Shown here piece by piece: positions 30,609 to 49,765 of a stretch of DNA of 64,000 nt. Every line of letters starts with the position of its first letter. Position 1 is the stretch's first letter. The stretch covers positions 1 to 64,000 of the forward strand of contig JALGYY010000041.1 in assembly GCA_025782575.1 (NCBI GenBank), given 5' to 3'. A program made the translations under genes and the position numbers. The DNA is from a bacterium (GTDB taxonomy: Bacteria > Orphanbacterota > Orphanbacteria > Orphanbacterales > Orphanbacteraceae). Under the pieces are notes generated by a model that did no database searches, was not told the DNA's origin, and saw only the letters and a program-made list of their open reading frames with translations.

Positions 30609-31679
30609 CTACTTCCAGTACGCCTGGATGACTTCGCGCATGGCGGGCGTCGACATGATAAAGTTCCGGCCGCCCTGTGATCCGGGAAACCACTTCCAGA
30701 GAAACGCACCGGCCAGAAGATCTTTTCGTTCGAGCGCGCGAAGAGCGGCATCTAAACAGCGGACCTGGATCTCTTCGGCGCCGTCACCACCCACCCTGTA
30801 ATCCCACGGCTGAACGGCAGCCGTAGCCGAGCGATTGTAACCGAGTTCTGTGAGAAGAACCTTCTTCCCGATCGAGTCGACGAACGTGGATACATCTTCT
30901 GCGATTCTGTCCCACGCGATGTCCAGTTCCTTGCGATTCGGCATGCCGAGTGAGTCGGCCACCGGGAAATAGGCCTGAATCCCGACGACATCGAGTGCAT
31001 CCCAGAACGGAACGTCACGGAACTCACTCCAATTGGCGGCATACGTTATCGGCACGTCGGAATCATCACGAATGCGGGCAATGATCTGTCGCCATTCGTC
31101 TTCGAACCGGACCGTGCGATCGAGTTCCGTTCCGACCGCGAATCCGTCGGCCCCCTCGCACGCCCGGACCACATAGAGAATCCACTCTTCATAGGATTCG
31201 AAAAAGCGCGCCCACTCTTCCTCGGTGGTAAATGCAATTTCGCCTCGCCAGTGGAACGGACTTCCCCAGTACGCAAGATGGGGTTTGATGAAAATCTTGA
31301 GTCCCAGGCGATGGGCTTCACGTATCGGACGGCTGAGCCATTCCGGTCGGGGATCTTCCCGCCAGAATCGATCGGACACCCTGCCGTTCCCCATGATCTG
31401 TGCGTAAGGGTGGATCGTGATCCAGTTGACTCCCATATCTGCGAGCTCCGCCATGGTAGCGACCATCTCATCGGTACCCCACTCCCACCCCCATGTTGCG
31501 CACGAAATTGTCATGCCCCTTACTTCGGAGTGGTCATCGGCCCACGCCCGCGGGCATGTGAAGATGATCGCTCCCATGATACAGGCAAAAATCAGTCCCG
31601 TTTTCGATCGATTCACAATCGGATCCTGAGTGAGATGATAGAAAGATGAGAGTCGAATCTCATTGTACAGGGAGGACAC
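30609..31679 (-). CDS. Secreted glycoside hydrolase (GH113-like TIM barrel)
   Basis: 356 residues. A hydrophobic export segment (TGLIFACIMGAIIF) precedes AWADDH. The barrel has MGVNWITIHPYAQI, GLKIFIKPHLAYWG, then acid/base Glu185 in AVGTELDR and nucleophile Glu279 in VLLTELGY, the spacing of clan GH-A retaining enzymes. GAFLWKWFPGSQGG closes the fold. GH113 members are beta-mannanases, but family assignment here is by eye. Last gene of the glycan operon, 41 bp after the AP-superfamily gene, so it may trim the exported polymer. The start may be an internal Met. Confidence 0.85.
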   Translation of the reverse strand: MSSLYNEIRLSSFYHLTQDPIVNRSKTGLIFACIMGAIIFTCPRAWADDHSEVRGMTISCATWGWEWGTDEMVATMAELADMGVNWITIHPYAQIMGNGRVSDRFWREDPRPEWLSRPIREAHRLGLKIFIKPHLAYWGSPFHWRGEIAFTTEEEWARFFESYEEWILYVVRACEGADGFAVGTELDRTVRFEDEWRQIIARIRDDSDVPITYAANWSEFRDVPFWDALDVVGIQAYFPVADSLGMPNRKELDIAWDRIAEDVSTFVDSIGKKVLLTELGYNRSATAAVQPWDYRVGGDGAEEIQVRCLDAALRALERKDLLAGAFLWKWFPGSQGGRNFIMSTPAMREVIQAYWK

Positions 31680-31720: not shown

Positions 31721-33118
31721 CTACATGTAGCCGAGCGCCTTCAGCCTGCGGATCACATCGACATCAAGATCCTCCGCCACCCCGTGAGCCATCCTGGGCA
31801 GCGCCCTCCACCAGTGATCGAGCAGGTTCTCCAGCTCGAGCACACGATCCGGCTGGAGTGAAGAGAGATCGGTCAACTCACCCGGATCTGAGTCGAGATC
31901 ATAGAGATGCCGCTCTATCTGATGAGTCCGGCAGGCAAACAGATCGTCCAGCTGATTGTAATCGCTCCGCGAATCCCCATCCTCCGCCCTGCGAAATCGA
32001 TAGGACCGAATCAGCTTGTGCCTTCCCCTGGTAACGGCCTGCCTGTATCGGCGCTTATGCTTCACTTCGGAGAAGATGGCTCTCTCGCCCGCCTCCGGCA
32101 CTCCCAGTATGCTTGACCCCTGCCAGTAGTCGGGGGGGCGGATTTCGAGAAGGTCAAGGATTGTCGGGGCAAGATCGACATGCGCGATACGTACTGTCCC
32201 GGATCGGGGAATCTCGTCCACCCTATCTGAGAGCATACCTGGCAGGCGAACGGAGAGGGGCACGCGAATCAATTCCTCGTAGAGTCCCTGACCATGCCCG
32301 ATGGATCCGTGATCCAGAAGTTCTTCGCCGTGGTCGGATGTGAGGATGACCACCGAATCCTCCTGTCTGCTCGGCTCTCCCAGCCAGTGAAACAGACGGC
32401 CGAGAGCGGTATCAACACGCTCAACGGACGCACGGTAAGCTTGCCGGAGAAATCGGGTCTCCTCGTCAGTCGGGAAGATGTCACCCATTTTCAGCGAACT
32501 CTTGAACTCCTTCCAATCTTCCCCGCGAAACTGGTGAAACGGAAATCGGCCGACTCGGTGGGGCGCGAGATATTCTCTCACTCGTGAATCGTACGGATAG
32601 TGTGGTTCGAGAACGTGCATGTAGACGAACCAGGGTTCGGAACCGGCGAGCCGATCATCGGCGCAGAGGCTGTCTACCAGATCATCGACGTTCCCACCGC
32701 AGGAAGTGAACTCATCAAAGCCTCTACTGAAATCGGGAATCGAGTCGAACTGTGCGTTGTGTGTAAGACCCAGGGTCAGATAACCGTGATTCCTCAGCAT
32801 CTCGGGAAGAGAATTGACGCGTGGCGGGAAACCTGGGGATTTTCTCTTTCCTCCAGACTTCGCCGTTTCGAAGATGCCATGTTCGGTCGGATAAAGAGAC
32901 AGGAGGATCGAAGGGACTGCCGGCTTCGTCCATGAGGAAGTGGAGGTAGCGGTAGTCCACAGATGGGAGTTCTCCCTCCAGCCATCCAGACAGGGTGTGT
33001 CGGGACGACCGATCTCTTCCCAGATCGATCCGGCCCGCTCCGGTTCCAGACAGTCCGCGCGAAGCGAATCGATGCAGATCATAAGGACATTCGGCTTCTT
33101 CCCTGGTATGCGACTCAT
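31721..33118 (-). CDS. Sulfatase-fold (alkaline phosphatase superfamily) enzyme with Thr nucleophile
   Basis: 465 residues. Metal ligands: Asp in LMICIDSLRAD, the D-H pair in ILTSDHGEELLDHG, and SIGHGQGLYEE. Where formylglycine sulfatases have C/S-x-P-S-R, this protein has Thr64 in SSWTKPAVPS, so formylglycine cannot form; Thr is the nucleophile in phosphoglycerol transferases such as LtaS. It may be a phosphotransferase or phosphodiesterase acting on a glycan. No signal peptide is visible. Overlapping operon context with glycan genes supports that role. Ends RRLKALGYM, as in many bacterial sulfatase-like proteins. Confidence 0.88.
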   Translation of the reverse strand: MSRIPGKKPNVLMICIDSLRADCLEPERAGSIWEEIGRPDTPCLDGWRENSHLWTTATSTSSWTKPAVPSILLSLYPTEHGIFETAKSGGKRKSPGFPPRVNSLPEMLRNHGYLTLGLTHNAQFDSIPDFSRGFDEFTSCGGNVDDLVDSLCADDRLAGSEPWFVYMHVLEPHYPYDSRVREYLAPHRVGRFPFHQFRGEDWKEFKSSLKMGDIFPTDEETRFLRQAYRASVERVDTALGRLFHWLGEPSRQEDSVVILTSDHGEELLDHGSIGHGQGLYEELIRVPLSVRLPGMLSDRVDEIPRSGTVRIAHVDLAPTILDLLEIRPPDYWQGSSILGVPEAGERAIFSEVKHKRRYRQAVTRGRHKLIRSYRFRRAEDGDSRSDYNQLDDLFACRTHQIERHLYDLDSDPGELTDLSSLQPDRVLELENLLDHWWRALPRMAHGVAEDLDVDVIRRLKALGYM

Positions 33119-33133
33119 CGAAATCCCGTGCTC

Positions 33134-34864
33134 CTATCGTATGTTGATGACCTTGAGAGAGGCCCTCTCGTGTTCGGTTTCCAGGACGGCAAAATAGACT
33201 CCGGGAGATACTCGCTCCCCCGAATTGTTACGGCCCGACCAGACTACGGACGTCTCGCCCGCCGCGATCGGACCACTGCGAAGTGTAGCGACGAGCCTGC
33301 CTGCATAATCGTATACGTGAAGATCGGCGGCCGGGCGAGAATGGGGTATGGACAGCCGGATCGTGGCGTCGATCGAGAACGGATTAGGTGCGACCCTCAT
33401 AAAAAACGCCGTGGGAGTTTCGGGCACTTCCGCCTTTTCCAGGACAAGGGTGGTTGGAAAGTCGTCCGGAATATTCAGCGTCGGCCAATGGATCTCCCGG
33501 AGACCGGCCCCCTCCGGAGGAACCACGGTTATGGAATACTCTCCCGGCTCGACGAGAAATCGGATCGCTCCGGAAGCATCGCTTACAACCTCCCACACCG
33601 CGTCGCTTTCGAGGGAGGTTCCTGTCACGCGAACCCCTTCGATCGCCACGCCGCCCGAATCAGACACAAGACTGGAAACGAAAACCCTCGTGTCAGGGAC
33701 TGCAGGAAATCGTAGAACCAATTCGGAGGTATCGGCAATCGTCAGTGAATCGAACAGGATGCTTTCTCCGCCCTGATCGGGGGATGGCTGGACCTGAATG
33801 TCGTAGATGCCCTGCTCTACCTGTATGAGAAATCGCCCTTCGGCATCCGTTACGCCGATCGGGTCAGCCGGAACCGGCAGTTTCGTCCCTGAAATAAAGA
33901 GGTCGATGTCGGCGGATGAAAGTGGGGTGCCGTCAGGGCTAAGAACGATTCCGGCGACGGGAATTCCGTCAGCAAGATTGATCTCGAGCAGGGATTGATC
34001 CCCATCCACCTGAAGATCGTAAAGGGCGCCGGGTGCCCAGCCAAGCTCCGAAGGGGCGGTGGCAAGAACGTGGTATCTCCCACGGGGAAGGCGAATTCCG
34101 AACGCTCCCCCCCATATGGTGTTGTCATCCGGCGTCGGAAACCGGCTGTTTGTTATTGCATCAACCACATCGATATCGGCGAGGAAAATCCCTCGTCCCG
34201 CACCATCCAGGACCGTACCGGTGATCAGGAATCCGAATGGTAGGTCAGCGTTGACTTCCGTGTGATCCGTGATGTCGACCGACGCCACGATCTGCGGTGC
34301 TACTTCGAGTTCGATCGGCGGATTGAATTCCACATCATATACGCCGGGAATCACACTGAAATCGAACCGGCCGTCGGCCTGTGAATCGTCACTGACGGTC
34401 GTCGCTTTTCGTCGCGTGGCGCGATTGAACAGATCGATATCAACTCCTTGCAGAGGGGAACCGTCCGGTCCCCGAACGAGACCGGTAACTCGTACGCCGT
34501 TCGGAAGAGTGACGTCCAGGGTTATGGGACCGGCGAGAACCACGTCTCGCTCCAGGGTGGGGGCGAGATCCCGCCGGCCCGCCGGCGGCTCGAATCGAAC
34601 ATGATAGATTGCAGGCTTCACGATCATGCTGAAATAACCGAATCCATCGGTATTGTCGCTCTGATTCTGCCGGTCGGCGGGAAAGGGATCGGTCTTGGTT
34701 CCCGATTCCGCGTCGAAGAAATCGAGATCGGCGCCGGCAATCCCGGATCCGGATCGGTCGGTCAGCCGCCCTTCGAAAAGCACCTGCGCAGCTGCGTTCC
34801 CTGTCGAGCAGAGCGCCCCCATGACGATCAGGGCAACGGTAAGTTGGATGAACCGGCTCTGCAT
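33134..34864 (-). CDS. Secreted five-repeat protein with FlgD-like C-terminal module
   Basis: 576 residues. Signal peptide at 1-27. Five consecutive units of about 80-90 residues follow the pattern G-x-V-x-D/G-x2-G-x3-x-x-x-D-x-D-x-x-D ... D/G-G-x-F-x-x-x-V-x-x-G-x-Y-x-V-x-x-x-PP, a carboxypeptidase-regulatory-like beta sandwich with an extra acidic D-x-D stretch. The last 90 residues (MRVAPNPFS ... VYDYAGRLVATL ... GVYFAVL) are a FlgD/T9SS-type module for surface delivery. Only 2 bp from the paralogue upstream. Function unknown; likely a cell-surface or matrix protein. Confidence 0.85.
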   Translation of the reverse strand: MQSRFIQLTVALIVMGALCSTGNAAAQVLFEGRLTDRSGSGIAGADLDFFDAESGTKTDPFPADRQNQSDNTDGFGYFSMIVKPAIYHVRFEPPAGRRDLAPTLERDVVLAGPITLDVTLPNGVRVTGLVRGPDGSPLQGVDIDLFNRATRRKATTVSDDSQADGRFDFSVIPGVYDVEFNPPIELEVAPQIVASVDITDHTEVNADLPFGFLITGTVLDGAGRGIFLADIDVVDAITNSRFPTPDDNTIWGGAFGIRLPRGRYHVLATAPSELGWAPGALYDLQVDGDQSLLEINLADGIPVAGIVLSPDGTPLSSADIDLFISGTKLPVPADPIGVTDAEGRFLIQVEQGIYDIQVQPSPDQGGESILFDSLTIADTSELVLRFPAVPDTRVFVSSLVSDSGGVAIEGVRVTGTSLESDAVWEVVSDASGAIRFLVEPGEYSITVVPPEGAGLREIHWPTLNIPDDFPTTLVLEKAEVPETPTAFFMRVAPNPFSIDATIRLSIPHSRPAADLHVYDYAGRLVATLRSGPIAAGETSVVWSGRNNSGERVSPGVYFAVLETEHERASLKVINIR

Positions 34865-34866
34865 CT

Positions 34867-36582
34867 CTATCTCACAAGTACCATCTTGCGGGATTCTGAT
34901 TGCTTGCCCGCATCCAGGCGATAGAGATAGACCCCTGATGGAACGGGCCTGCCGCTATCATCCCGTCCGTCCCACGTCAGTTCGTGAGTTCCCCCCTCCA
35001 GAGGCCCGGCATGCAACGTGCGAATCTGCTGACCGTTCGCACCGTAGAGGCGGACGGAGACCGGGGCATAACCGTCATGTGAGAGGATAAAGCGGATCCG
35101 TGTAGTCGGATTGAATGGATTGGGCTGATTGGAGAGTAGACTGAGACGAGACGGGACTGCTCCACTTCCGACCCCCACTGAGGGATCGGCTGAGAGGAAG
35201 AAGTCCACTTGTGTATCGCCGGCGAGCGGGCTCACCATTACAGTGTCGGGAAGTAGCCCGCTCCCGGCAGGGGGGTTCGCGATAACGAGATAGGCACCAC
35301 CTGGGACGCGCAGTTCATAGGCACCACCTCCATCGGTGTCGTCGCCCGGAGTGGGATAAACAAAACCGCCCACCTGTTCCACAATATCGATATCACTTCC
35401 TGGAATCGGATTCACACCCGTATCCCAGACATGTCCAAAAATCCTGAATCCGGGCAGAAGTGTGATCGTCCCTAGATTCATCGGGCCGGCCACTATCTGA
35501 TCGTGCAGTACGGTCGAAGCAAGAGGCATCCCGACCGGCGGGTTGACATAGATATCCATCGTCTCCGCCGGTGCGATCATTTGAAAGGCGCCTCCGACAA
35601 CCGTCTTGTCTTTATCAGTCGGTATTTTGAATCCCACGCTGATATCGATCATATCCAGATCCGCGCCAACCAGGGGAGTAAGGGTCTGATCGACCACCGT
35701 TCCGCTAAGCACAAAACCGGGGGGGAGAACGATACTGCTGACAAGAGAATCCGCTGAAAGGATGAAGTCGTTAAGGGCCACATGAGCCAGGCCGCTCCCG
35801 ATCGGGGGATTGAAGACGATGTCGTAGATACCGGCTGCCACAGAAGGACCGAAGTCGCCGTTGGAATCTGAATTGTCTCTAGGTGTGTACAGCGTCAAAC
35901 CGGTCGCCTGATCTTCGAAATCAAGATCGACGTTCGGAACCGGTGTGGAAGACAGGTCTCTCACAGTCCCCGACAGGAAGAAACCAGGGGCGAGTTGTGT
36001 CGTATCGAGAGACATCGGTCCTGTAATGACGATGTTCTTCAGCTCCGCGCCGGCGTACGGCTGGCCCAGGGGGGGTGTAAACCGGATATCATAGGTTGCG
36101 GCCGGCACAAGTATGTTGAATGCGCCGAACAGATCCGTGTTGTCGTCATTCGTATTGATGATGTCGCCGGTCGCGATATCGACAAAGTTGAGATCTACGT
36201 TGAACAGGGGTGCATTCCCTTGGTCGGTCACCCAGCCGGTAATCCCATGACCGACAGGCAGGGTGATATCAAATAGCGTATCGGAAAATATATCTACGCG
36301 GATTTCAACATCGAGAAAGGGACTCCCTGTCGGTGCATTATAGGTGATGTCGTACTCAGACGCCGGTACGTCGACACTGTAGAACCCGTTGGCGTCCGTA
36401 TTGTCTCCCGGAGTAAAGATGATCTGCCCGAGATTGCGGTCAAAGAAATCAAGATCGACGTTGAAAACACCAAATCCCGATTCGTCGACGACCTGTCCCG
36501 AAACGATATGGGCGAATGCGCTCCCGCAGGCACCAAAACAGATAACCACCCCAACCAGAACAACGATTACCGACCGTCTCAT
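34867..36582 (-). CDS. Secreted five-repeat protein with FlgD-like C-terminal module, paralogue
   Basis: 571 residues. Signal peptide at 1-24 (VVLVGVVICFGACGSAFA). Five units of about 88 residues, clearer than in the downstream paralogue: each has G-x-V-x-D, N/G-V-D-L-D/N-F-x-D, P-x-D-N-T/S-D-x-x-G-x-F, Y-D-I-x-F/Y-x-P-P and G-x-x-L/I-P. The acidic VDLDF and DDNTD elements could bind calcium. The C-terminal module runs from NQPNPFNPTTRI to MVLVR. 18 bp after the barrel gene. Confidence 0.86.
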   Translation of the reverse strand: MRRSVIVVLVGVVICFGACGSAFAHIVSGQVVDESGFGVFNVDLDFFDRNLGQIIFTPGDNTDANGFYSVDVPASEYDITYNAPTGSPFLDVEIRVDIFSDTLFDITLPVGHGITGWVTDQGNAPLFNVDLNFVDIATGDIINTNDDNTDLFGAFNILVPAATYDIRFTPPLGQPYAGAELKNIVITGPMSLDTTQLAPGFFLSGTVRDLSSTPVPNVDLDFEDQATGLTLYTPRDNSDSNGDFGPSVAAGIYDIVFNPPIGSGLAHVALNDFILSADSLVSSIVLPPGFVLSGTVVDQTLTPLVGADLDMIDISVGFKIPTDKDKTVVGGAFQMIAPAETMDIYVNPPVGMPLASTVLHDQIVAGPMNLGTITLLPGFRIFGHVWDTGVNPIPGSDIDIVEQVGGFVYPTPGDDTDGGGAYELRVPGGAYLVIANPPAGSGLLPDTVMVSPLAGDTQVDFFLSADPSVGVGSGAVPSRLSLLSNQPNPFNPTTRIRFILSHDGYAPVSVRLYGANGQQIRTLHAGPLEGGTHELTWDGRDDSGRPVPSGVYLYRLDAGKQSESRKMVLVR

Positions 36583-36600: not shown

Positions 36601-38337
36601 CTAGAAATTATATTCAACCTGTAGCTTGTGACTTCTCGCTGTCTCAGCGATCTCCGGAAACGCCGCCCCCGGGTCGAAGACCGAGAAGCTGTATTCCACG
36701 TCGACCCGCGGTATCTCTTCGAACGCCAGAATCAGATCCCACTCACGACCCAGTTCATCTCTCTTGCCCAGAGGCTTCGCTTCCAGATTCGATCTGATCA
36801 GAGAGCGATCGGGCTCGACCTGTCGGTAGTCATGGAAGATCAGATCGATGGAGGACTTCCGGCTGGGCCGGAAACCGACACCCATTGTGGCAATCTTGAG
36901 ATTGCTCAACTCTGGTTCGAAAAGCTCACCGTAATATTTGAAGCTCGCCACGCCGCCGAATTTATCGTTGTTATCCTGCAACCCTGTCTGGCGGTAACGG
37001 TCCTTCTCTTCCGATCCCCCTGATCCGTACGCCCATCCGGCCGTAAGTGATAGCCGATGCTTTCGTGTCACTCTCAGGCGTAGTCCTGCGTCCACCCCGT
37101 AGGCTGAACGCCGGATGCCATCCAGCTTTCCACGCAGCAGAGACAAGTCAGCCCAGTGGTGCAGCGGGCCACCGAGTTTCCCTTCCGATCGGAATCCGTA
37201 CCAGACCGCCCGATTTCCGGCATCACCATCTCGGGTCCTTCGAATGGCATAAGATCCGATGTCCCACTTTTCCCTGACAGGAACGCGGGCCGCCACAATC
37301 GCGTTTCGCCAGTCTTTTAGCCGCTTCGAATCCGTGTTCCATCGGATGGTGTAGGATATCTCCGTCTGAATCGAACCGATCAACGAGTGAAACCGGACCC
37401 CGTCCAGATTTTCATCGTAGATCCACTCTCGCGATTCATCGAAATCCTGGCGACCTACCTGGAGAGCGACATTCCTCATCGAAGTCGGCTGCCAGACGAA
37501 GTAAAGTTGCTTCAGGGAGTATTCGGACGTATTGGATTCATCGCTTTCTTCATCCAGATGAATCCGTTTCGATATGTGTCCTACCTTGAGGAACCCGTCG
37601 AGACCAGGCAAGACCCTGGCATCGACTTCCATTTCAGCGATCCACTTCGACTGAATCAGATCGCCCGGCCTGTCGCCGTTCAAGTTGTAGTTCATCTCGG
37701 GTTCGAGGTCCGACTGCAAGCCTCCTCCGATCACGAATCGACCGTCACGGGAGCGCCACGATCCGGGACGCGCACCGTCATCATCGATATTTCTCGGGAG
37801 AAAGAGGCGTCGGCTTACCTTTGCACCGCCCGGGCCTCGAACGACAGGATCCCCATCGAGGCGAATCGAGAGACCGTTCACGACCATGGTCTTCTTTTTG
37901 CGTGAGAAGTACTTCACCGAGCCTTCTATCTCGATATTCTCAGTCGTCCCCGGCAGGGACCGGATTCTATCAGCTTCGAGCACAGCTCCCCCTTCGATGT
38001 GCCCATCCACCTCAATCCAGGCCCCCCGCCGGAGTTCCGTTTCTGTCTCGCAGTTCTTTCCTACGCGGACAGGAATCCCGAGAAGAGTGAATTCCGTTCC
38101 CCCCGGTTCAACAGATTCCAGTACGGCCGCTATTTCAAATTCAGTGGGGTCTCCCCCATTTCGGATATAAATCTTCTTCGCCTTCAGTCCCCGGTGATCG
38201 AGCTTTTCTCCGTGAACCTCGACGATCATGCCGTTTTCGATGGCGAACCAATCCTGCCACCTTTCGGCAAGAGAACGTTCGGACGTGCCCATGACGGCCA
38301 TAAGTGCGACGAACAATGCAGTGGCACGCAGGGTCAT
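36601..38337 (-). CDS. Outer-membrane beta-barrel, alginate-export (AlgE)-like
   Basis: 578 residues from ATG 38337. Signal peptide, then a DUF5666-like OB domain at about 40-160 (VEVHGEKLDHRGLKAKKIYI, IEVDGHIEGGAVLEADRI), then about 18 amphipathic strands ending in aromatic residues. RNVALQVGRQDF and ISYTIRWNTDSKRLKDWRN resemble AlgE-family barrels; the final residue is Phe (LQVEYNF), the BAM signal. It would be the outer-membrane exit or an associated pore for the polymer made by the upstream genes. 4-bp overlap with the kinase-fold gene before it. Confidence 0.78.
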   Translation of the reverse strand: MTLRATALFVALMAVMGTSERSLAERWQDWFAIENGMIVEVHGEKLDHRGLKAKKIYIRNGGDPTEFEIAAVLESVEPGGTEFTLLGIPVRVGKNCETETELRRGAWIEVDGHIEGGAVLEADRIRSLPGTTENIEIEGSVKYFSRKKKTMVVNGLSIRLDGDPVVRGPGGAKVSRRLFLPRNIDDDGARPGSWRSRDGRFVIGGGLQSDLEPEMNYNLNGDRPGDLIQSKWIAEMEVDARVLPGLDGFLKVGHISKRIHLDEESDESNTSEYSLKQLYFVWQPTSMRNVALQVGRQDFDESREWIYDENLDGVRFHSLIGSIQTEISYTIRWNTDSKRLKDWRNAIVAARVPVREKWDIGSYAIRRTRDGDAGNRAVWYGFRSEGKLGGPLHHWADLSLLRGKLDGIRRSAYGVDAGLRLRVTRKHRLSLTAGWAYGSGGSEEKDRYRQTGLQDNNDKFGGVASFKYYGELFEPELSNLKIATMGVGFRPSRKSSIDLIFHDYRQVEPDRSLIRSNLEAKPLGKRDELGREWDLILAFEEIPRVDVEYSFSVFDPGAAFPEIAETARSHKLQVEYNF

Positions 38338-39587
38338 CGGGACGCCCCCCATGCGAGTCTGACCCTCGTCGCCCCAAGTAGTTGTTCAGGAAGAGCGCTC
38401 CAGCGAGGTCGTAAGGAGTAGACACCGGCCAATCGGATCAGAGACAGATTCTCGAACAGGCCGATCTCCTCGCTGCTCGGGCAACTCCCTCCACTCTCGT
38501 ACCCCCTCAGGAATCGGGCTCGTTCTCGCTCGGCACAGCTTTCCCTGATTCGCCCTTGAAGGGCACGGAGACGGAGATGGGCCAGGAAGTTGCCGACGTC
38601 CAGCGCGGCCGGCGCGTTGGTCAGCATATCCCAATCGAGAATCGAAAGTCCTTGAGGGCTCACAATAATCTGTTTGTCATAGAAATCCCGGTGAGCTAGA
38701 ACGGGATCACCCTCCGGAATTCCTCCCGCTTCTTTCTCGACGATCAGAAGCGCTTCTTCGATCCTTTGACCGATAGACGAATCGTAACGATCGAGACGGC
38801 CCGCCAGATTTCGAATAAGGACGAACTCATCCGATCGGGAATGGGTCACCGCGTCTATGGGTGCACACCTGTGGAGAGAAGCAAGTGCGAGGCCGGCTGG
38901 GAACGAATCCGAGGCACTCGACGAAACAAGTCGCTCCAGATAAGACCGCCCCGGAACGTGACAGAGATGGATTGATCCTCGTTTACTGTCGCTCCTGAGT
39001 ATCTTCGGCAGCCCGGTCCGGCTCCCTCCCCACACTCTCTCGAGATGAGTCAAATTCCGGTGAAGCCTCTCTACTCTCTTTCCCTTATAGACCTTGACAA
39101 TCTGCAGATTCGGCTCCTGATCCCCATCCGACGCGGACTCGACCTGAAGGGTAAGCCTCTTTCCCGGGCGATGGCCGAGCACCTTCCAGTCCCGAAGGCC
39201 TTCAATGTCTCCAAGTACGTTCGGCACATCCGAGGAACTTACCTCGATCCCCAAATCCGGATCTTCCGGGGAGAGATGAATCGGATTCCCTGTCAACAGA
39301 TCCCGCGCCCAGGCTCTTCCGGACCGGCTTCGCCCCGTGAGATCCCCCGGAACAAGAAACAGGGGAACCTGTCGAATTGTCTCCGTTGATCGGCATTCAT
39401 ACCGACAGTCGAATACCAGTGTGGCAATTCCGTTCCCCCCGAGGAGCAGGCGATTTAATTCCACTATCCGAATCCGGTAACGACCGGCGAAGATGTAATT
39501 AAGATGTTCCTCCAGATGGGCGGTCACGATACGGCTGGTATGCCATCTTTCCAAGAGCGGGAGCCGTTCGTTCGAATCGGAGTTCAT
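38334..39587 (-). CDS. APH-like phosphotransferase (second of two)
   Basis: 417 residues. The catalytic loop is H-R-D-x-x-x-x-Q in LAHRDFYDKQIIV and the metal loop D-W-D in SILDWDML, both of the aminoglycoside-phosphotransferase/choline-kinase fold. An N-terminal domain of about 160 residues has no clear match. Likely phosphorylates a sugar or small alcohol in the glycan pathway; antibiotic resistance is not implied. ATGA overlaps on both sides. Distant paralogue of the gene upstream. Confidence 0.85.
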   Translation of the reverse strand: MNSDSNERLPLLERWHTSRIVTAHLEEHLNYIFAGRYRIRIVELNRLLLGGNGIATLVFDCRYECRSTETIRQVPLFLVPGDLTGRSRSGRAWARDLLTGNPIHLSPEDPDLGIEVSSSDVPNVLGDIEGLRDWKVLGHRPGKRLTLQVESASDGDQEPNLQIVKVYKGKRVERLHRNLTHLERVWGGSRTGLPKILRSDSKRGSIHLCHVPGRSYLERLVSSSASDSFPAGLALASLHRCAPIDAVTHSRSDEFVLIRNLAGRLDRYDSSIGQRIEEALLIVEKEAGGIPEGDPVLAHRDFYDKQIIVSPQGLSILDWDMLTNAPAALDVGNFLAHLRLRALQGRIRESCAERERARFLRGYESGGSCPSSEEIGLFENLSLIRLAGVYSLRPRWSALPEQLLGATRVRLAWGASR

Positions 39588-40906
39588 ACCGCCCCTTTCT
39601 CTTTCGTTGACTCCAGCAGTCCGGATGTGCAGTTCAGAATATTCTCCACATCATTTCGCCAGCCGGTACGCAGATTGCGAAACGGCACGAGAGAGAGATA
39701 GAAGAGATGAAGGGCGACAAAGAATGCCAGTTGAGACTCTGACTTCCCGGCGATCGGATAGGATTCCAGAAAAGCGGAACGAAGAGACCGCGCCATCTCT
39801 GCCGAGAGTCTCCCGTCCAGTTCGATCATGTGGATGTGGGCAAGGAAGTTCCCGGCGTCCGCAAGTGGAGGGCCGACGCGCGATTCATCCCAATCGATCA
39901 TCACTATGTCGTCCTCGCTCCGGATAAACTGGTGGTAGTGGCAATCACCGTGAATGATCGTCGGGGGCATCGGCCCCATGGCGGCACTCTGCTTGTCCAA
40001 CATCCTCACGATCTCATCAGGAGCACCATTCAGACTCTCACCGACGCTGATCAGATCCTTCGCGAGGAACTTCGCATGGAGGATGTAGTCGGAAACCGTC
40101 TTTTCCTCACAGTTCGGGACCGGCAGAGCCTGCAAATCCTTCAACGCGAGCGCCACCTGTCCGGCAGCGGTTGTTCCGCCCGGCCCGAGGAGATCCTCAT
40201 AGAGGTCCCGGCCGTTTACGAATTCCTGAAAGAGAATTCGATTCTCACTGTCATACCCGAGTGGCTTGGGGATGCGGAACGAAGCGTTTCCTGTATAGGA
40301 TGCGATGTGCCGCATCATGCTGTACGTGCGCGCACCATCTACCCCTGCATAAGCCTGGGCGACCAGCTTGAATTCGCCGGGTTCGCCGTTCCTTGCATCT
40401 CGCGTGCAGAGGCGGGCGCTGACAATGCAGCGGCGCTCCGGTTTGTATCGGAGAATTTCCAGAGAGCTTTTCTTGGCCCGTATTCGAATCGTCGAGGGAG
40501 AATAGGATTCAACGGATTCATGAATTCGATGCTTGAGATGATTGACACTGACAAGAAAAGGAAGACCTCTTACCGATCGATCAAGGGGGAAATTGAAGTA
40601 GACCGCTCTGGCGCCATCAAACAGGTGGGCCCATCCTCCCTCTTTGGCCCGTCCCGAATACTTCCTGAAACACTCCTCCGGATCCCCGGACTCAAAAATC
40701 TTGATATAGCCTCTGTGAAACTTCCCTTCGACACCTGAGATATCCAGGCCGAACAGACAACTCGTGCCCGGCTTGTACCTGACGTATGAAACCTCGATCG
40801 ACGGCGAATCACCCAGATCTTCTCCATGCTCGCGAAACACGTTGACGAGCTCGTCGATGAATGCCTGGCCTGTAAGGCGCCTCTTGGCGTCAAGCGGAAA
40901 CATCAT
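39584..40906 (-). CDS. APH-like phosphotransferase (first of two)
   Basis: 440 residues from ATG 40906. Catalytic loop IIHGDCHYHQFI (H-G-D-x-H-x-x-x) and metal loop MIDWDESRVGPPLADAGNFLAHIH are complete; GYDSENRILFQEFVNGRDLYEDL is the hinge region. The N-terminal 150 residues (IEVSYVRYKPGTSCLFGLDI) are extra relative to classical APH enzymes. Start overlaps the ABC transporter end by 17 bp. Two adjacent, diverged copies suggest two different small substrates or one heteromeric kinase. Confidence 0.86.
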   Translation of the reverse strand: MMFPLDAKRRLTGQAFIDELVNVFREHGEDLGDSPSIEVSYVRYKPGTSCLFGLDISGVEGKFHRGYIKIFESGDPEECFRKYSGRAKEGGWAHLFDGARAVYFNFPLDRSVRGLPFLVSVNHLKHRIHESVESYSPSTIRIRAKKSSLEILRYKPERRCIVSARLCTRDARNGEPGEFKLVAQAYAGVDGARTYSMMRHIASYTGNASFRIPKPLGYDSENRILFQEFVNGRDLYEDLLGPGGTTAAGQVALALKDLQALPVPNCEEKTVSDYILHAKFLAKDLISVGESLNGAPDEIVRMLDKQSAAMGPMPPTIIHGDCHYHQFIRSEDDIVMIDWDESRVGPPLADAGNFLAHIHMIELDGRLSAEMARSLRSAFLESYPIAGKSESQLAFFVALHLFYLSLVPFRNLRTGWRNDVENILNCTSGLLESTKEKGAV

Positions 40907-42728
40907 GTGACATTCCCCCTTCTTCCATGGCGTACATCTCACGAAACCGGTCACAACGATCGAGCAACTCGTCTCGTGTTCCGCTATCGATTACCCTGCC
41001 ATCCTCGATTACGAGAATTCGATCGGCGAAGTCGATTCCGCTCAGCCTGTGTACGATCATGAGCGCGGTGCGGTCGCGGACAAGGTCGCGGGCGGCATCC
41101 CAGAACGCATCGCGCGCGAGGGGATCAAGATAGGTATCCGGCTCATCAAGAATTACGATCGGGCTCGCCCTCAGGAACGCCCGGGCGAGAGCGATTCTCT
41201 GCCTTTCCCCACCGGACAGGCCGACACCATTCTCTTCGAGAACCGTTCGATACTCGTCGGGCAGCCGGAGAATGCGGTCGTGTATTCCGGCCCGCCTTGC
41301 CGCCCTCTCCAGTTCCGCCTGGTCGAACTGGTCCCGACCGTATGCGATGTTGTCCTGAACACTGATTCCCAGAATCAACGTCTCCTGCAAAACAAACGCA
41401 ATCTGGTCGCGCAGGTGAGCGAGCTCGATGCGGGCGAGGGGAATCCCGTCCAACGTGATCCGGCCTTGAGATGGTTCATAGAGGCGGGGGATAAGGCGGG
41501 CCATCGTCGTCTTGCCTGACCCGGAGTGGCCGACCAGAGCTACTGTTTCTCCGGCTCGGATTTCAAGGTCAATACCGTGGAGTACTTCCGTTCCGGCGTC
41601 GTACTGAAAATGAACTGACTCAAAGCGGATCTGCCCTTTGATTTCGGGCTGAATCGATCCAGGTTCATGAAGATTTTCTCCCTCGAGTTCGAAGATCTCG
41701 GCAATTCTCTCCGCAGCGACAATTCCCTTTGCCAATCGCGATGAAAGTCTCGAGAATCGCTGGATCGGTTTGTAGAGCATGACAAGATAGGAGATCGCCA
41801 GAACAAGATCGCCGATCGAGATCCGACCCTCCAATGCCCGGCGGGATCCGATCCATAGAACGAGACAGGTACCGATCGCTGTCAGGATCTCGATACGCCT
41901 CTCAAGAGCAGCCTGAAGCTTCGTCGCTCGAAGACCCTGCCGAAAGCTCCTGCGCTGATCGGCGAGAAAACGATCATCCTCGAACTCCTCCGCCCGCTGA
42001 ACCTTGACGAGTCGCACGGATGCGACTGATTCCGCCGCTGTTGCAGCAAGCTTTCCCTCTCGCTGGCGTTGCTTCCGTACGGCGAGACGGATCCGCCCTG
42101 CGAACTGGAGCGTCGTGAACGAGAGAAACGGAACGACCGCGACGGCGGCAAGCGCCAGAGGCACGTCGATCTGAAACATGAGAATTGCAATTGCCGCCAC
42201 GACCAGAATCTGCGAAAGGAGCGCCAGTCCCGAAGGAACCAGGAGGTTTCGAAGGAGGTTCATGTCGGCGGTGAGCCGGAGAAGGAAATCCCCTGTCTTG
42301 GCGTGATCATGATGGGACATCGTGAGCCTATGGATGTGCCTGTAAAGATCCTTACGCACTCGAAATGCCAGTAGTTGTCCTCCTCGCGCCGCGAAGTACC
42401 GCTGAACAAAAGTGGCGATACCACCCAATACGGCGATCAGAAGTATGGCGGCGGACGCGAACAGGAGAATCTCGTCGGCGGTCCGATTTCTGAGAGACGG
42501 AATCAAGTCAATGAAGGATGCGCTTGTGTCGCCCACCAGGACGTCAACCACTACCTTGATCGGCCATGGCCTGAGAACATGCAGAGCAGCCTGTGCAATC
42601 ATACCGAGCCCGGCCACAAGCAGAGTCGGCCAGATCTTCTGGAGGAACGGTCGAAAATGAACAAGCACACCGATAACGGAGTAGAGTCGCAGATTCCTGT
42701 GAATCGTTTTTCTTCGAATCCCGATCAT
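40890..42728 (-). CDS. ABC transporter, fused permease-ATPase (exporter type)
   Basis: 612 residues. N-terminal six-helix exporter domain (residues about 30-340), then ATPase: Walker A GHSGSGKT at 400-407, Q-loop in FVLQETLIL, signature LSGGERQR at 504-511, Walker B PIVILDEP at 523-530, and H-loop in IVHRLSG. The layout is MsbA-like half-transporter; it would work as a homodimer. Context between glycosyltransferases and kinase-fold genes points to export of a lipid-linked or free glycan intermediate. Start overlaps the upstream glycosyltransferase (ATGA). Confidence 0.95.
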   Translation of the reverse strand: MIGIRRKTIHRNLRLYSVIGVLVHFRPFLQKIWPTLLVAGLGMIAQAALHVLRPWPIKVVVDVLVGDTSASFIDLIPSLRNRTADEILLFASAAILLIAVLGGIATFVQRYFAARGGQLLAFRVRKDLYRHIHRLTMSHHDHAKTGDFLLRLTADMNLLRNLLVPSGLALLSQILVVAAIAILMFQIDVPLALAAVAVVPFLSFTTLQFAGRIRLAVRKQRQREGKLAATAAESVASVRLVKVQRAEEFEDDRFLADQRRSFRQGLRATKLQAALERRIEILTAIGTCLVLWIGSRRALEGRISIGDLVLAISYLVMLYKPIQRFSRLSSRLAKGIVAAERIAEIFELEGENLHEPGSIQPEIKGQIRFESVHFQYDAGTEVLHGIDLEIRAGETVALVGHSGSGKTTMARLIPRLYEPSQGRITLDGIPLARIELAHLRDQIAFVLQETLILGISVQDNIAYGRDQFDQAELERAARRAGIHDRILRLPDEYRTVLEENGVGLSGGERQRIALARAFLRASPIVILDEPDTYLDPLARDAFWDAARDLVRDRTALMIVHRLSGIDFADRILVIEDGRVIDSGTRDELLDRCDRFREMYAMEEGGMSHDVSA

Positions 42729-44008
42729 GCCCCTCCCTCCGAAATGAAAGAGGTACTCCGAACGCTTGTGTCACTGGCAATTTCTCGAATCAAACCGAGC
42801 ACCCTTCCCGCCACACTTTCCCAGGATCGCCCGGCTACGACCCTCCTGGCCCTCTGACCAAGATCGGATCGAAGCTCCGGTGAATCTCGAAGCTTCTCGA
42901 CTCCTGAGACGATCTCATCTACGTTTCCGGGCTCTGTCAGCCAGGCTGACTCTCGATGCTTGAAAAGCTCACTGATTTGCCCGATCGAGCTGGCGATGAT
43001 TGCCTTCCCCATTGCGGCGTATTCGATCACCTTCATAGGCGAGAAATAGAAACCGTCCGACGCGGGGTAAGGAGCAACGGCAACATCGAGAAGAGAGAGG
43101 TATTCAGGCACGCGGCCGTGTTCGACCGGACCGGTCAGACAGAAGGAATCCCCGGGCATCGAATCACGGAGCTTTTTACGGATCGGTTTGAGGAGTGGTC
43201 CGCCGCCGACAATCAGCAATCTGTATGTAGGGTTCTTCCTGTGGAGTTGCTGAAACGCTTTCAGAAGGTCGCCTACCCCGTGCCAGGGCTTCAGACTGCC
43301 AACGAAACCGATCCAGAATTCCCCGTTTTTCCTGCAGGGAGTTTCGCCGGTTCCATCCATCCCGCCTGATGATCTGAATCCCTCGCCAAAACCATTGGGC
43401 AGGACCTCGATCCGCCCTGAGTCCACGCCGAGTTCACACACATAATCGCGAAGTTCGCTTGAAACGACGACCAGCTTCGAAGCGGCCCGAAAGACGTTTC
43501 GTTCGATGAATCTCGCCGTCGATTCGAGAGCGAGCGAACGGTGCTGTTTCTGCTCCTGTACGAGAGGTGCGTTCACCTCAACGACGTAGGGGATGGAGTA
43601 CTGCTCCGCGAACATCGCGCCGGCCACACTCCAGAGTGAGTACCTCTCATATATCGCTTCAACGAATCCTGATCGGTGGAGCCGGCCGAGCGTACTCGCA
43701 GCTTCATCGTTCACCGCAAGCAGAGAGATTTCGCGCCTCTCGGTCTTTCCCTCCGAACTTCCAACAGACCGTTTCTCTACCTGGCGCCCGATCTCATGGA
43801 TTCTGACTACTTCCCCGCCGTCCGGCTCTCCGCCGGCTATTACGACACCTGGTCCGGGTGGCCGCCCTTTTTCCAGACGATAGGTGAGTACATTGACTGC
43901 GTCGGCGTTCCGGGAAAAAGCGGAAACCATCTCGCGAACGTGAACGCTCGCTCCCTTGGCTCCGAAGTAGGGGATGCCGGGATCGGCGCTAAGATAGACG
44001 AGGCGCAT
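42725..44008 (-). CDS. Glycosyltransferase family 4 (first)
   Basis: 427 residues from ATG 44008. GT-B fold: N-terminal LSADPGIPYFGAKGASVHVREMV with the Gly-rich loop, C-terminal FVGSLKPWHGVGDLLKAF, LLIVGGGP and the E-x7-E-like motif in FYFSPMKVIEYAAMGKAII. PYVVEVNAPLVQEQ is typical for GT4 enzymes acting on lipid-linked acceptors. Retaining transferase of nucleotide-sugar; sugar unknown. 20-bp overlap with the upstream GT4. Confidence 0.92.
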   Translation of the reverse strand: MRLVYLSADPGIPYFGAKGASVHVREMVSAFSRNADAVNVLTYRLEKGRPPGPGVVIAGGEPDGGEVVRIHEIGRQVEKRSVGSSEGKTERREISLLAVNDEAASTLGRLHRSGFVEAIYERYSLWSVAGAMFAEQYSIPYVVEVNAPLVQEQKQHRSLALESTARFIERNVFRAASKLVVVSSELRDYVCELGVDSGRIEVLPNGFGEGFRSSGGMDGTGETPCRKNGEFWIGFVGSLKPWHGVGDLLKAFQQLHRKNPTYRLLIVGGGPLLKPIRKKLRDSMPGDSFCLTGPVEHGRVPEYLSLLDVAVAPYPASDGFYFSPMKVIEYAAMGKAIIASSIGQISELFKHRESAWLTEPGNVDEIVSGVEKLRDSPELRSDLGQRARRVVAGRSWESVAGRVLGLIREIASDTSVRSTSFISEGGA

Positions 44009-45284
44009 AACCGATCCCCGAAGTAGCACCTGATTGGATGGCTGTCGGCGCGACATCCTTTTTAGATGACTCAGCCGATGATTGAAAAAGTCGGGATATG
44101 GGAGAGAGGTTCTTTCTGATATCGAACCGGGATTCAGCTCTTGCCCGGCCCGTCAGCGCCAACTCCTGACGTCGCCCCGGGTTGGCAGCGAGCGCCTCCA
44201 GGCAAACCGCAAGGGCAACCGCGTCGTCGATCGGCACCAGCTCTCCGGCGTCCTCTCCCAGAATCTCGGCTATCCCGGTTACATCGGTGGAAACCGCCGG
44301 AAGTCCTGTGGCAAGTGCCTCGAGGAGAACGGTAGGCAGGGCATCCCTGTTTCCATCCGGCGCGATCCGAGCAGGCAGCACGAATATGTCCGCTTCGTCC
44401 ATCGCCATTCGAACCTCCCGATCGGTCTGGGGTCCGAGCAGATGAACACAATCCCGAATACCATGCTCGTCCACGAGGCTATCGAGCGAGTCTCTTTCCA
44501 CACCTCCACCGATGATGCGACACTCGATATCGACTCCCCGGCTGTTGAGGACGGCACACGCATCGACCAATGTGTCGAATCCTTTCTTCGCAACTAACCG
44601 CCCCACACCGAGGAGCTTCAGAGGACCAATCCCATTTCGCTCCCGGAACGATTGGACCACCAGGTCCAGCCCGTTGTAGATACGATGAATCGTTGTGCGA
44701 GACGGATAGGATTCCAGAAGATAGTTTCGATTGGCATCGCATACGGTTACGACAAACGCTGCATCATCTATCTTGGTCTGGAGCGCGTTCCGATCGACCG
44801 AATCGTGGTAGATATCCTTCGCGTGGGCAGTAAAACTGAAGGGGATCGAAGTCAGGCGAGAGGCGATTCGAGCAACGGTTGAGGGTACTGTAGCGAAGTG
44901 AGCGTGCAGGTGATCGATTCCTCTATTCCGCGCCTCTTTTGCCAGGAACAGCCCGTTCCCGAATTCCCGGAGAGCGGCATGGTTCCCGCTTTCCAACGCG
45001 GACCAGAGCAGCTCGCCCAACTCTCTCCTGCCGGATCGGAAGGCCGGCGCATGAGCGAGCAACAGATCCGTGCAGGCCGCAGGAGAGGCGGCAGGGAGAT
45101 GCACCACATGAGCGGCTACCTGAGCGAGCTTTCTATGAAATCGCCCTTCATTCGGCAGGCGCAGCGAAAATATCGTAACCTGCGCGCCCACGCGCTCCAT
45201 CTCCAGGATCTCGTTGACGATGAACGTCTCTGACAGCTTGGGATACATTTTCACCACATATCCGATGTGAATACCGGTCATCAT
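43989..45284 (-). CDS. Glycosyltransferase family 4 (second), colanic-acid WcaL-like
   Basis: 431 residues. KMYPKLSETFIVNEILEMERVGAQVTIFSL is characteristic of WcaL/EpsD-like exopolysaccharide GT4 enzymes, followed by HLHAHFATVPSTVARIAS and FSFTAHAKDIYHD. The C-terminal half has LLGVGRLVAKKGFDTLVDAC, CRIIGGG and the E-x7-E motif in DALPTVLLEALATGLPAVST. Overlaps the upstream gene by 4 bp. Its likeness to capsule enzymes is the main support for calling the operon a surface-glycan operon. Confidence 0.93.
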   Translation of the reverse strand: MMTGIHIGYVVKMYPKLSETFIVNEILEMERVGAQVTIFSLRLPNEGRFHRKLAQVAAHVVHLPAASPAACTDLLLAHAPAFRSGRRELGELLWSALESGNHAALREFGNGLFLAKEARNRGIDHLHAHFATVPSTVARIASRLTSIPFSFTAHAKDIYHDSVDRNALQTKIDDAAFVVTVCDANRNYLLESYPSRTTIHRIYNGLDLVVQSFRERNGIGPLKLLGVGRLVAKKGFDTLVDACAVLNSRGVDIECRIIGGGVERDSLDSLVDEHGIRDCVHLLGPQTDREVRMAMDEADIFVLPARIAPDGNRDALPTVLLEALATGLPAVSTDVTGIAEILGEDAGELVPIDDAVALAVCLEALAANPGRRQELALTGRARAESRFDIRKNLSPISRLFQSSAESSKKDVAPTAIQSGATSGIGYAPRLS

Positions 45285-46462
45285 CCGGCTGCCTGCATCT
45301 GTGTCAGATCTCTCTCAAAAATATCAGCCGCTCGGTCCAGCCCCCCGAAATCGAGACAGCCGTTGGTATTGCTGTTAGGCGCTGCCAGAAGTCGATCAAT
45401 CGTTTCCGCCAGAATCTCCGGTGAGAGTTCATCCGGATGGATCATCTCGGCAATCCCGAGCGCTTTCATGTTCCGAGCGCGGATGAGTTGTTCCTGACGA
45501 GGTTGCACGCGAGGCACCAGTATGACTTTCTTCCTCTGCGCCAGAATTTCACACACCGAGTTATATCCGGCCATTGAGACGACCACATCGGCGGACCGGA
45601 AGAACTCTTCTACCCGATTGGTGAAATCAACCGCGAACACATTTGTTCGGGGGGGCGACATGCGGGCGTGAAGGCGAGCTCTGTCTGCCTGGGGCATGTC
45701 TGGCCCGGTCAGCACGACGCTCGCGAACGCCTCTCGGACGTGCCCCAGGCTCCTTACAAAGTTTTCCAGGAGAAAGTAGCCGTCCTCTCCCCCGCCCGCG
45801 GTAGCAACGACGAGAGGACGACTATCCGACGGCTCGGTCATCGACATCTTTCCGCCGGGTACATCGCGTCTTATGTATCCGCAGAAACTGACCTTGGCCG
45901 CCACGTCGCTCGGAAAACGGTACTCTCGAATCGGATCGCAGATTTCCTTCATTCCCCACACCAGAATGCGGTCGTAGTAATCGCGGAGAACGTCGTACAG
46001 CCCTTTCGACCTCCAACTCCGAACGACCACATCCGGTTCGTCGAGTATGTCCCGTAGACTGAGCACCACACGGGCTCTCTTTTTCCGACGGGCATTGGCG
46101 ATCAGAGAGGGCATCAACTCACCCATCACTCCGGCCGGGTGTTTGTCTGCGACAAAAATGTCCGGCGCGTAATTCTGAAAAGTTTCCAGGATGATTCTCG
46201 AACGAAGCTGGAAGAGCTCTCCCCCACCCATCTGCAGGTTTCGAGCTTCGTATGAGGAGTTGGCCGTCTTCCGAAGAGAGGGGAGTTTGATGAAGTCCAC
46301 GTTTCTAGGAAGTCTAAAAGACTGGATTACAGGGGTTCCTGTCAAAATCAATGCTGTCGAATCGGCAATCGAAGCGATTCTCTCCGCGATCGCGATCGTG
46401 CGCCGGATATGACCGAGCCCGAGCGCGTCATGGGAGTAAAAAAGGATGCGCTTCTTCGTCAC
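45281..46462 (-). CDS. MurG/GT28-like glycosyltransferase
   Basis: 393 residues. RILFYSHDALGLGHIRRTIAIAERI at the N terminus and VVVSMAGYNSVCEILAQRKKVILVPR at the C terminus match the UDP-GlcNAc-transferase-like (MurG/GT28) C-domain, with the Gly-rich ATAGGGEDG between. Related proteins lie in polysaccharide clusters of actinobacteria and deltaproteobacteria. GTG 46462 is preferred because AGGAAACTCGAA precedes it; ATG 46504 would add 14 residues. First gene of the minus-strand operon. Confidence 0.88.
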   Translation of the reverse strand: MTKKRILFYSHDALGLGHIRRTIAIAERIASIADSTALILTGTPVIQSFRLPRNVDFIKLPSLRKTANSSYEARNLQMGGGELFQLRSRIILETFQNYAPDIFVADKHPAGVMGELMPSLIANARRKKRARVVLSLRDILDEPDVVVRSWRSKGLYDVLRDYYDRILVWGMKEICDPIREYRFPSDVAAKVSFCGYIRRDVPGGKMSMTEPSDSRPLVVATAGGGEDGYFLLENFVRSLGHVREAFASVVLTGPDMPQADRARLHARMSPPRTNVFAVDFTNRVEEFFRSADVVVSMAGYNSVCEILAQRKKVILVPRVQPRQEQLIRARNMKALGIAEMIHPDELSPEILAETIDRLLAAPNSNTNGCLDFGGLDRAADIFERDLTQMQAAG

Positions 46463-46623
46463 TTCGAGTTTCCTTCCTGTTGTGATTGCGGGGTGTCCGC
46501 TCATTGGCGTAGTACGGGATCGAGAGGGGTTTCGTACAGAACAGATGACTTTTCGTCAGTCGAGACTCATAGCCCTTGGTAACAGGAGGAGATCTGGCGT
46601 CACTCACACGATTGGGAGGAGAA

Positions 46624-49635: not shown

Positions 49636-49765
49636 CGGTCTACCTCCCCCTGATTGCCTCTGTAATTAAGTAGTACGAAACGCCTATTCATTTCGTACTT
49701 CATATTTGCCCCCCTCTTGGACGGGGGCCGCTGAACCCGCCAACCATCTTTTTGGAGGTCTCGCA
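49636..49765. promoter_or_regulatory. Divergent regulatory region with two inverted repeats
   Basis: A perfect 9-bp inverted repeat AGTACGAAA/TTTCGTACT lies at 49672-49699 with a 10-bp loop, and GCCCCC/GGGGGC at 49708-49728. They sit between the subtilase (minus) and the surface protein (plus). The first could be an operator serving both genes or a bidirectional terminator-like hairpin; the second lies in the 5' leader of the plus-strand gene. Confidence 0.5.

Follow-up and report, generated by a model that had tools for sequence, protein, structure and literature searches.

Related systems

Carboxypeptidase-regulatory domains are frequent in surface proteins, where they are usually given no specific function. 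In the 64,000-nucleotide stretch of bacterial DNA analysed here (the window), two neighbouring genes encode rod proteins A and B, whose units, as judged from sequence, are an acidic variant of this domain. With the Pfam family CarboxypepD_reg (PF13620) and carboxypeptidase D the rods share the fold and a G-x-V-x-D-x-x-G ... T-D-x-x-G frame. They differ from other members in carrying Asp at unit positions 20, 22 and 37, where control units have mainly other residues, and in forming head-to-tail tandems of four to seven units.

Gram-positive shaft pilins (SpaA, BcpA), prominent among the top Foldseek matches, are likewise tandems, of CnaB-type domains, whereas the rods carry a type IX secretion-type tail. 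Kinship with pilins from Foldseek superposition of the whole unit pair was rejected: among the 50 matches listed, the query-normalised TM was at most 0.41 and the rmsd over two domains mostly exceeded 10 Å. X-module-dockerin pairs of cellulosomal scaffoldins (chains 4u3s and 4wi0) also match the rod unit; rods from the phylum of genome G015 end in a dockerin-like tail, but the window rods do not. The alginate exporter AlgE is the closest known counterpart of the barrel encoded beside the rods, which matches Alginate_exp. In contrast to AlgE, this barrel has an N-terminal DUF5666 domain and is flanked by an ABC exporter and glycosyltransferases with no recognised synthase. Finally, the B region of Staphylococcus aureus SdrD consists, according to PMC13174682, of five tandem calcium-binding CnaB-type sandwich domains with short linkers, forming a rod as proposed here, and its calcium sites lie in the A-B loop and on the D-A-G-F0 face.

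Two paralogous repeat proteins

Rod protein A (34867..36582, minus strand, 571 aa) has a signal-like N-terminus, five acidic CarboxypepD_reg units, a disordered linker and a type IX secretion-type tail. Its units, all on the minus strand, are A1 (36253..36513), A2 (35986..36252), A3 (35719..35985), A4 (35452..35718) and A5 (35188..35451), followed by the linker and a C-terminal tail of FlgD_ig / Por_Secre_tail type (34870..35187). Rod protein B (33134..34864, minus strand, 576 aa) has a signal-like N-terminus, five units and a tail of the same secretion type. On the same strand are B1 (34499..34786), with an insertion shared by the B proteins of loci L031, L034 and L035, B2 (34235..34498), B3 (33968..34234), B4 (33701..33967), in which position 37 is non-acidic, B5 (33434..33688), without the acidic residues, and the C-terminal tail (33137..33433). 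Units are 85-96 residues long, typically about 88.

The two proteins align over their full length with 27% identity (BLASTP, E 1e-45). An HMM built from the ten window units recovered five units in both homologues that another genome (L031) carries, each with an i-E of 3.5e-12 or lower, and the repeat is therefore not due to chance. The sequence-only reading, which had proposed two paralogous secreted proteins of five alignable beta-sandwich units in these two reading frames, is thus borne out by BLASTP and the unit HMM as to paralogy and repeats, and is supported as to secretion and fold. It had overlooked the non-repeat C-terminal tail of about 100 residues. The motifs that it named fared less evenly. 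'VDLDF' persists in degenerate form in 9 of the 10 units but is gone from B5, and 'DDNTD' in 8 of 10, being absent from B4 and B5. 'PPxG', thought to end the unit, actually lies at about unit positions 60-63, ahead of the last two strands.

Fold of the units

On sequence and model grounds, the units are carboxypeptidase-regulatory domains with a predicted transthyretin-like fold. CarboxypepD_reg matches B with 101.5 bits and A with 77 bits (cut-off 32.3), four stretches passing in each protein. Among structures, human carboxypeptidase D supplies the best match to the predicted unit, with its transthyretin-like domain (5aq0_A; Z 12.6, 78 residues aligned at an rmsd of 1.4, 26% identity). The suggestion that the repeat departs from the common carboxypeptidase-regulatory domain thus found no support. 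A novel fold, or a repeat unrelated to these domains, was rejected on the Pfam and structural matches.

The proposed rod shape is likely, judging from an AlphaFold2 model of two units (pLDDT 97.0, pTM 0.87) in which the final strand of the first unit lies four residues before the initial strand of the second. The full-length model, made from four sequences only, was weaker (pLDDT 82.1, pTM 0.60; the other four models 53.9-64.2) and was relied on solely for the disordered linker.

A conserved, probable glycan-export locus

The rods lie in a run of genes in the order GT28-GT4-GT4-ABC-two APH kinases-Alginate_exp barrel-rod A-rod B-sulfatase-GH113, which are probably transcribed together as an operon of 11 genes (46504 to 30609, minus strand). 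Upstream of the rods, and conserved beside them in other genomes, are a GT28-type glycosyltransferase (45281..46504), two GT4-type glycosyltransferases (a, 43989..45284; b, 42725..44056), an ABC exporter with ABC_membrane and ABC_tran domains (40890..42728), two APH-family kinases (1, 39584..40954; 2, 38334..39587) and a probable outer-membrane barrel with DUF5666, Alginate_exp and a C-terminal Phe (36601..38352), all on the minus strand. The barrel scored 95.8 bits against Alginate_exp (PF13372; cut-off 25.2). Downstream, also on the minus strand, are a sulfatase-family hydrolase (31721..33118), found in G001 and G387 as well, and a GH113-family glycoside hydrolase with a signal-like N-terminus (30609..31679), found in G001 too. 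Among the operon genes no polymerase, Wzx/Wzy or synthase could be recognised, so that a polysaccharide product is suggested by the glycosyltransferases, the exporter and the barrel. The sole hint that the product is anionic is a UDP-sugar dehydrogenase (UDPG_MGDP_dh), which adjoins one locus only, that of G015.

The locus could instead serve protein glycosylation, the ABC exporter flipping a lipid-linked oligosaccharide that is then placed on the rods as glycan acceptors. The rods are indeed secreted proteins adjoining glycosyltransferases and an ABC exporter, and this pairing with an ABC_membrane/ABC_tran exporter resembles PglK-type glycosylation loci. We consider this explanation very unlikely: no oligosaccharyltransferase was recognised among the operon genes, the Alginate_exp barrel would be left without a role, and genome G030 retains the glycosyltransferases, ABC exporter, kinases and barrel without rods.

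Among 224 genomes of four phyla, 23 encode rods. The barrel gene is near them in 21 of the 23, the remaining two loci stopping at a contig edge, and the order GT-GT-ABC-APH-APH-barrel-rod is kept wherever the contig extends far enough. In the phylum of G178 the system is rare, with rods in 3 of 80 genomes. A unit-pair profile matched 24 of 386 genomes at E 1e-8 or lower; the five best of these matches reach at least 130 bits and all have the barrel, and the other 19 do not exceed 86.7 bits. Weak additional barrel matches occurred in G362 (74.3 bits), in whose surroundings window proteins match by the ABC query alone, and in G317 (61.5 bits). A scan of contigs with protein A returned two loci. 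Literature searches did not find the locus, which does not by itself show that it is unpublished.

Secretion and C-terminal tails

The tails of A and B are type IX secretion-like, and both proteins are predicted to be cargo with a type A tail. The sorting-domain model TIGR04183 (cut-off 23) gave 28.2 bits for A and 23.6 for B; Pfam Por_Secre_tail matched B below its cut-off (14.5 bits against 27) and was not listed for A. Query A matches 151 places in its own genome, among the matches listed nearly all via the tail. In a plasmid collection two records matched, both Rhodothermus and both by the tail only. An SprA gene (TIGR04189) is present in the same genome (525.4 bits summed, cut-off 200), and SprA exceeded the cut-off in all 4 rod genomes among the ten tested besides it. 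G030, which has the same cluster without rods, gave no SprA match; G002 and G064 have SprA and no strong rods. A search for GldM found no match, and its controls were likewise unmatched, so that this search says nothing.

In the phylum of G015 a different arrangement was seen: one rod per genome has a dockerin-like C-terminal domain (15 of 15), which rods A and B of the window lack. With a profile of the 15 tails dockerins rank first (2y3n_B at 2.3e-7). Dockerin_1 reached E 0.05 or lower in 7 of the 15 tails; when six whole proteins were compared with it, one scored above the cut-off.

Acidic positions and cation binding

Positions 20, 22 and 37 often hold Asp or Glu in rods and rarely do so in controls, and the three gain or lose it jointly. 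All three positions are acidic in 134 of 235 rod units (24 loci, protein threshold 1e-15) and in 0 of 54 control units, a small set (65 units, 54 unique) of matches outside the locus to the same profile, which rewards acidic residues, with position 22 gapped in 26 of the 54 counted. A further set held 88 units from 10 loci. Alignment A2 contained 36 of 37 units, the truncated third B unit of L035 being omitted; L035 and L106 appear to be one contig and L034 appears to equal G343:C519, and each was counted once.

Among 190 acidic-column pairs, defined by an analyst-chosen acidic-fraction window of 0.15-0.9 in 139 representatives below 50% identity, the top three co-varying pairs were 22-37 (p 2.4e-9), 20-37 (6.5e-9) and 20-22 (2.6e-6), p values on which the non-independence of related units, even at 40-50% identity, has a bearing. 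Positions 25 and 59 are weaker partners. By DSSP numbering, the acidic positions sit on the second strand and the loop preceding the third. The co-variation may also reflect subtype descent, as units drifting to the generic type drop all three positions jointly.

A cation site at 20/22/37 is plausible. The calcium sites suggested by the sequence-only reading are putative, with indirect support from three positions that are acidic and co-vary. A match to a described calcium-binding repeat, which that reading had named as its refutation, was seen in part: B passes the cut-off of SdrD_B (PF17210; 41.9 bits against 29.7), but this family was not listed for A. SdrD A2-A3-B1-B2 (10ps) matches the unit at Z 9.2. 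The SdrD calcium site as such was tentatively rejected, from the Pfam result and from the site placement given in PMC13174682, relative to which the acidic positions of the rods fall on other elements, by DSSP numbering only.

Could the acidic cluster be a carbohydrate-binding site rather than a metal site, so that the rods would bind the exported glycan as lectin domains in tandem? The positions behave as one co-varying patch, and the structural matches include 4iyk, a putative carbohydrate-binding protein (Z 9.2). Three carboxylates in close proximity usually require a cation, however, and the sole conserved aromatic column listed, 54, is present in control units too; we regard this explanation as highly improbable.

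An alternative is that the rods are ordinary spacers or adhesins, with acidic residues serving solubility or charge and with the link to the locus reflecting co-inheritance of surface genes. The pI values of A and B are low (4.13 and 4.37), as is frequent among secreted proteins, carboxypeptidase-regulatory domains are widespread, and acidic columns 10, 40, 55 and 79 share no co-variation with 37. Against this stand the fully acidic triad, which is specific to rods of the locus, and the proximity of the barrel in four phyla, and we judge the explanation rather unlikely.

Proposed function

Our preferred reading, to which we give a probability of roughly 55%, is that A and B are type IX cargo that form rigid surface rods of a glycan-making and glycan-exporting operon, capturing the glycan and binding cations. 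The GT28 and the two GT4 enzymes would assemble the glycan, with the APH-family kinases phosphorylating an intermediate. The ABC exporter would carry it over the inner membrane and the Alginate_exp barrel would let it through the outer membrane, and the sulfatase-family enzyme and GH113 may trim it. Put outside by SprA-type secretion, the rods would hold or organise the glycan. A divalent cation, probably Ca2+, is the most likely ligand of the acidic cluster in each unit (20, 22 and 37, more weakly 25 and 59), and this ion may stiffen the unit or bridge it to an anionic glycan.

More tentatively, and as a possibility that we hold to be somewhat doubtful, the locus may be a glycan-display system of at least four phyla, in which the operon exports an anionic glycan and paired rods, whose domains would each have about one cation site, capture it in a calcium-dependent matrix. 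One rod would be anchored by type IX secretion, and the second would be anchored in the same way (window lineage) or docked through its dockerin to another component (the phylum of G015).

In four phyla, gene order links this acidic subtype with a single probable glycan-export locus and so provides a testable function for it, cation-dependent glycan capture. The subtype also marks a recurring locus in little-studied phyla, where type IX secretion would be combined in one system with an alginate-type barrel and, in a single phylum, with dockerins.

Domain architecture and fold of the rod proteins

The two paralogous rod proteins are encoded side by side on the minus strand as ORFs of 571 (protein A, 34867-36582) and 576 amino acids (protein B, 33134-34864), and share 27% identity along their length (E 1e-45). 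Each sequence begins with a hydrophobic signal-like stretch, continues with five units 85-96 residues long and finishes with a tail of roughly 100 residues. Both are acidic (pI 4.13 for A, 4.37 for B). An HMM built from the ten window units only found five units in protein A of three homologous loci (L031, L034 and L035) and in protein B of L031; the B genes of L034 and L035 run past the contig ends.

The sequence-only reading had set these repeats apart from the common carboxypeptidase-regulatory domain. This separation was not upheld: Pfam CarboxypepD_reg scores 101.5 bits in B and 77 bits in A (cut-off 32.3), with four passing stretches in each, and the top of 999 re-aligned PDB chains was the transthyretin-like domain of human carboxypeptidase D (Z 12.6; 78 residues superposed with rmsd 1.4). 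The units are therefore members of the very family from which they had been separated, CarboxypepD_reg. The SdrD_B profile matches B, not A. Foldseek matches include many tandem CnaB shaft pilins as well as SdrD, and X-module-dockerin chains of cellulosomal scaffoldins match the rod unit.

In a two-unit model computed from 29 aligned unit pairs (pLDDT 97.0, pTM 0.87), four residues separate the strands of adjacent units. This closeness and the confident relative placement of the two units support the prediction of a stiff rod. Confidence is lower for the full-length model, which shows a disordered linker before the tail.

Conserved acidic positions

Acidic residues were counted at columns of the unit alignment in 235 units (42 ORFs, 24 rod loci) and in 54 control units, matched elsewhere than at the locus by the same profile, which rewards acidic residues. 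Position 20 is acidic in 187/234 rod units but only 5/48 control units, position 22 in 161/218 versus 1/26, and position 37 in 167/234 versus 3/42. All three are acidic together in 134 of the 235 rod units and in none of the 54 controls. Positions 40 and 10 are frequently acidic in both sets alike.

Among 139 representatives with <50% identity, positions 20, 22 and 37 are lost jointly: of 190 acidic-column pairs, 22-37, 20-37 and 20-22 rank highest, with 22-59 and 25-37 next. None of columns 10, 40, 55 and 79 is positively associated with 37, and for column 10 the association is weakly negative (p 0.014). The 20/22/37 association persists at a 40% identity cut-off (70 representatives, p 1.6e-5 to 5.2e-4). 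The DSSP string assigns positions 20-25 to the second strand and position 37 to an irregular segment ahead of the third long strand. Our reading is that these three residues make a putative cation site.

In working mode, the rods nearest to A and B appear to be SdrD-type B-repeat rods, which are described as five-domain, Ca-binding and rigid (PMC13174682). By DSSP numbering the acidic positions of A and B map elsewhere, and the secretion route differs.

Secretion and C-terminal tails

The tails of A and B score 28.2 and 23.6 bits against the type IX sorting model TIGR04183 (cut-off 23), and the genome encodes a SprA frame of 2037 residues (525.4 bits). Query A matches 151 places in this genome; among the matches listed, nearly all do so only through the C-terminal tail, indicating a very large type IX secretome. 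Near the operon, an S8 protease (47968-49635, minus strand) and a 320-residue protein (49706-50668, plus strand) both end in the same FlgD_ig-type tail, which makes them likely type IX cargo as well.

One phylum shows a second tail type. By eye, each of the 15 rod genomes in the phylum of genome G015 has one rod with a dockerin-like end (L069:8295-10580, L126:7647-9968 and 13 more loci), adjoined in 11 of the 15 by a type IX-tailed rod. In the other three phyla, all rods with the end present carry type IX-type tails (by eye). Run against PDB chains, a profile built from the 15 dockerin-like tails gives dockerins as its first matches (2y3n_B, 2.3e-7); Dockerin_1 is found at E <= 0.05 in seven of the 15 tails and exceeds its cut-off in one of the six whole proteins of this kind that were tested. 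The scaffoldin X-module-dockerin chains match this tail as well as the unit.

Gene neighbourhood and distribution

The genes from 46504 to 30609 all lie on one strand and overlap or are closely spaced; A and B are the eighth and ninth of them. The order is GT28, GT4, GT4, ABC exporter, two APH-family kinases, a DUF5666-Alginate_exp barrel (a probable outer-membrane protein), A, B, a sulfatase-family gene and GH113. The window also encodes a 957-aa TPR-CHAT protein (50673-53546, minus strand), close to a sigma-factor gene (54236-54739).

In the window's phylum, a search with protein A (E <= 1e-3) detected rods in 2/7 genomes. A unit-pair profile at 1e-20 detected them in 3/5, 3/80 and 15/132 genomes of the phyla of G343, G178 and G015, respectively, which gives 23 of 224 genomes altogether, all distinct. 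The barrel gene is near the rods in 21 of the 23. In G178 it lies about 2.4 kb away on the opposite strand with two regulatory genes between, and in G521 and G522 it is split over two adjacent frames; in G506 and G536 the contig stops upstream of the rod. Wherever the contig extends far enough, the ABC exporter and the APH genes are found ahead of the barrel, arranged as in the window. Five genomes in a set of 386 have a best rod match of at least 130 bits (the window's own genome G000, G001, G015, G178, G343), and all five are among the eight with barrel matches. The sulfatase is present at the locus in three genomes (G000, G001, G387) and GH113 in just two of them (G000, G001); being seen in so few genomes, both look like local additions.

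Several loci show further variation. Both the first rod and the barrel of G521 are spread over two adjacent frames (L122:8650-10622, L122:10626-12479), so either these genes are broken or the assembly contains errors. An extra DUF5666-type gene or frame lies between the second APH gene and the barrel in L069 (Pfam DUF5666) and in L119 and L130-L132 (barrel profile matches only). In two phyla the locus is accompanied by genes for a histidine kinase and a sigma-54 response regulator (L074:6375-9209, L070:10735-13124), and the GT28 frame of G178 includes a response-regulator domain.

Genome G030 has the run GT28-GT4-GT4-ABC-APH-APH-barrel (L084:9941-19272) with no rods nearby. Of ten genomes searched for SprA, it exceeds the cut-off in four rod-bearing ones (G001, G343, G015, G178) and in G002 and G064, which have no strong rods; G317 has a match below the cut-off, and G030, G362 and G054 gave none. 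Rods therefore accompany the combination of SprA and the locus, and the core genes can occur where SprA is not detected; as G030 is a single genome, this natural control is only suggestive.

Possible function of the locus

Literature searches on such a locus found no description, which does not prove it unpublished. The genes are most economically read as a surface-glycan locus that includes display rods of its own. A UDP-glucose/GDP-mannose dehydrogenase gene immediately upstream of GT28, seen once (G015), would fit a uronic acid in the glycan. We infer that the rods would bind Ca and capture the glycan.
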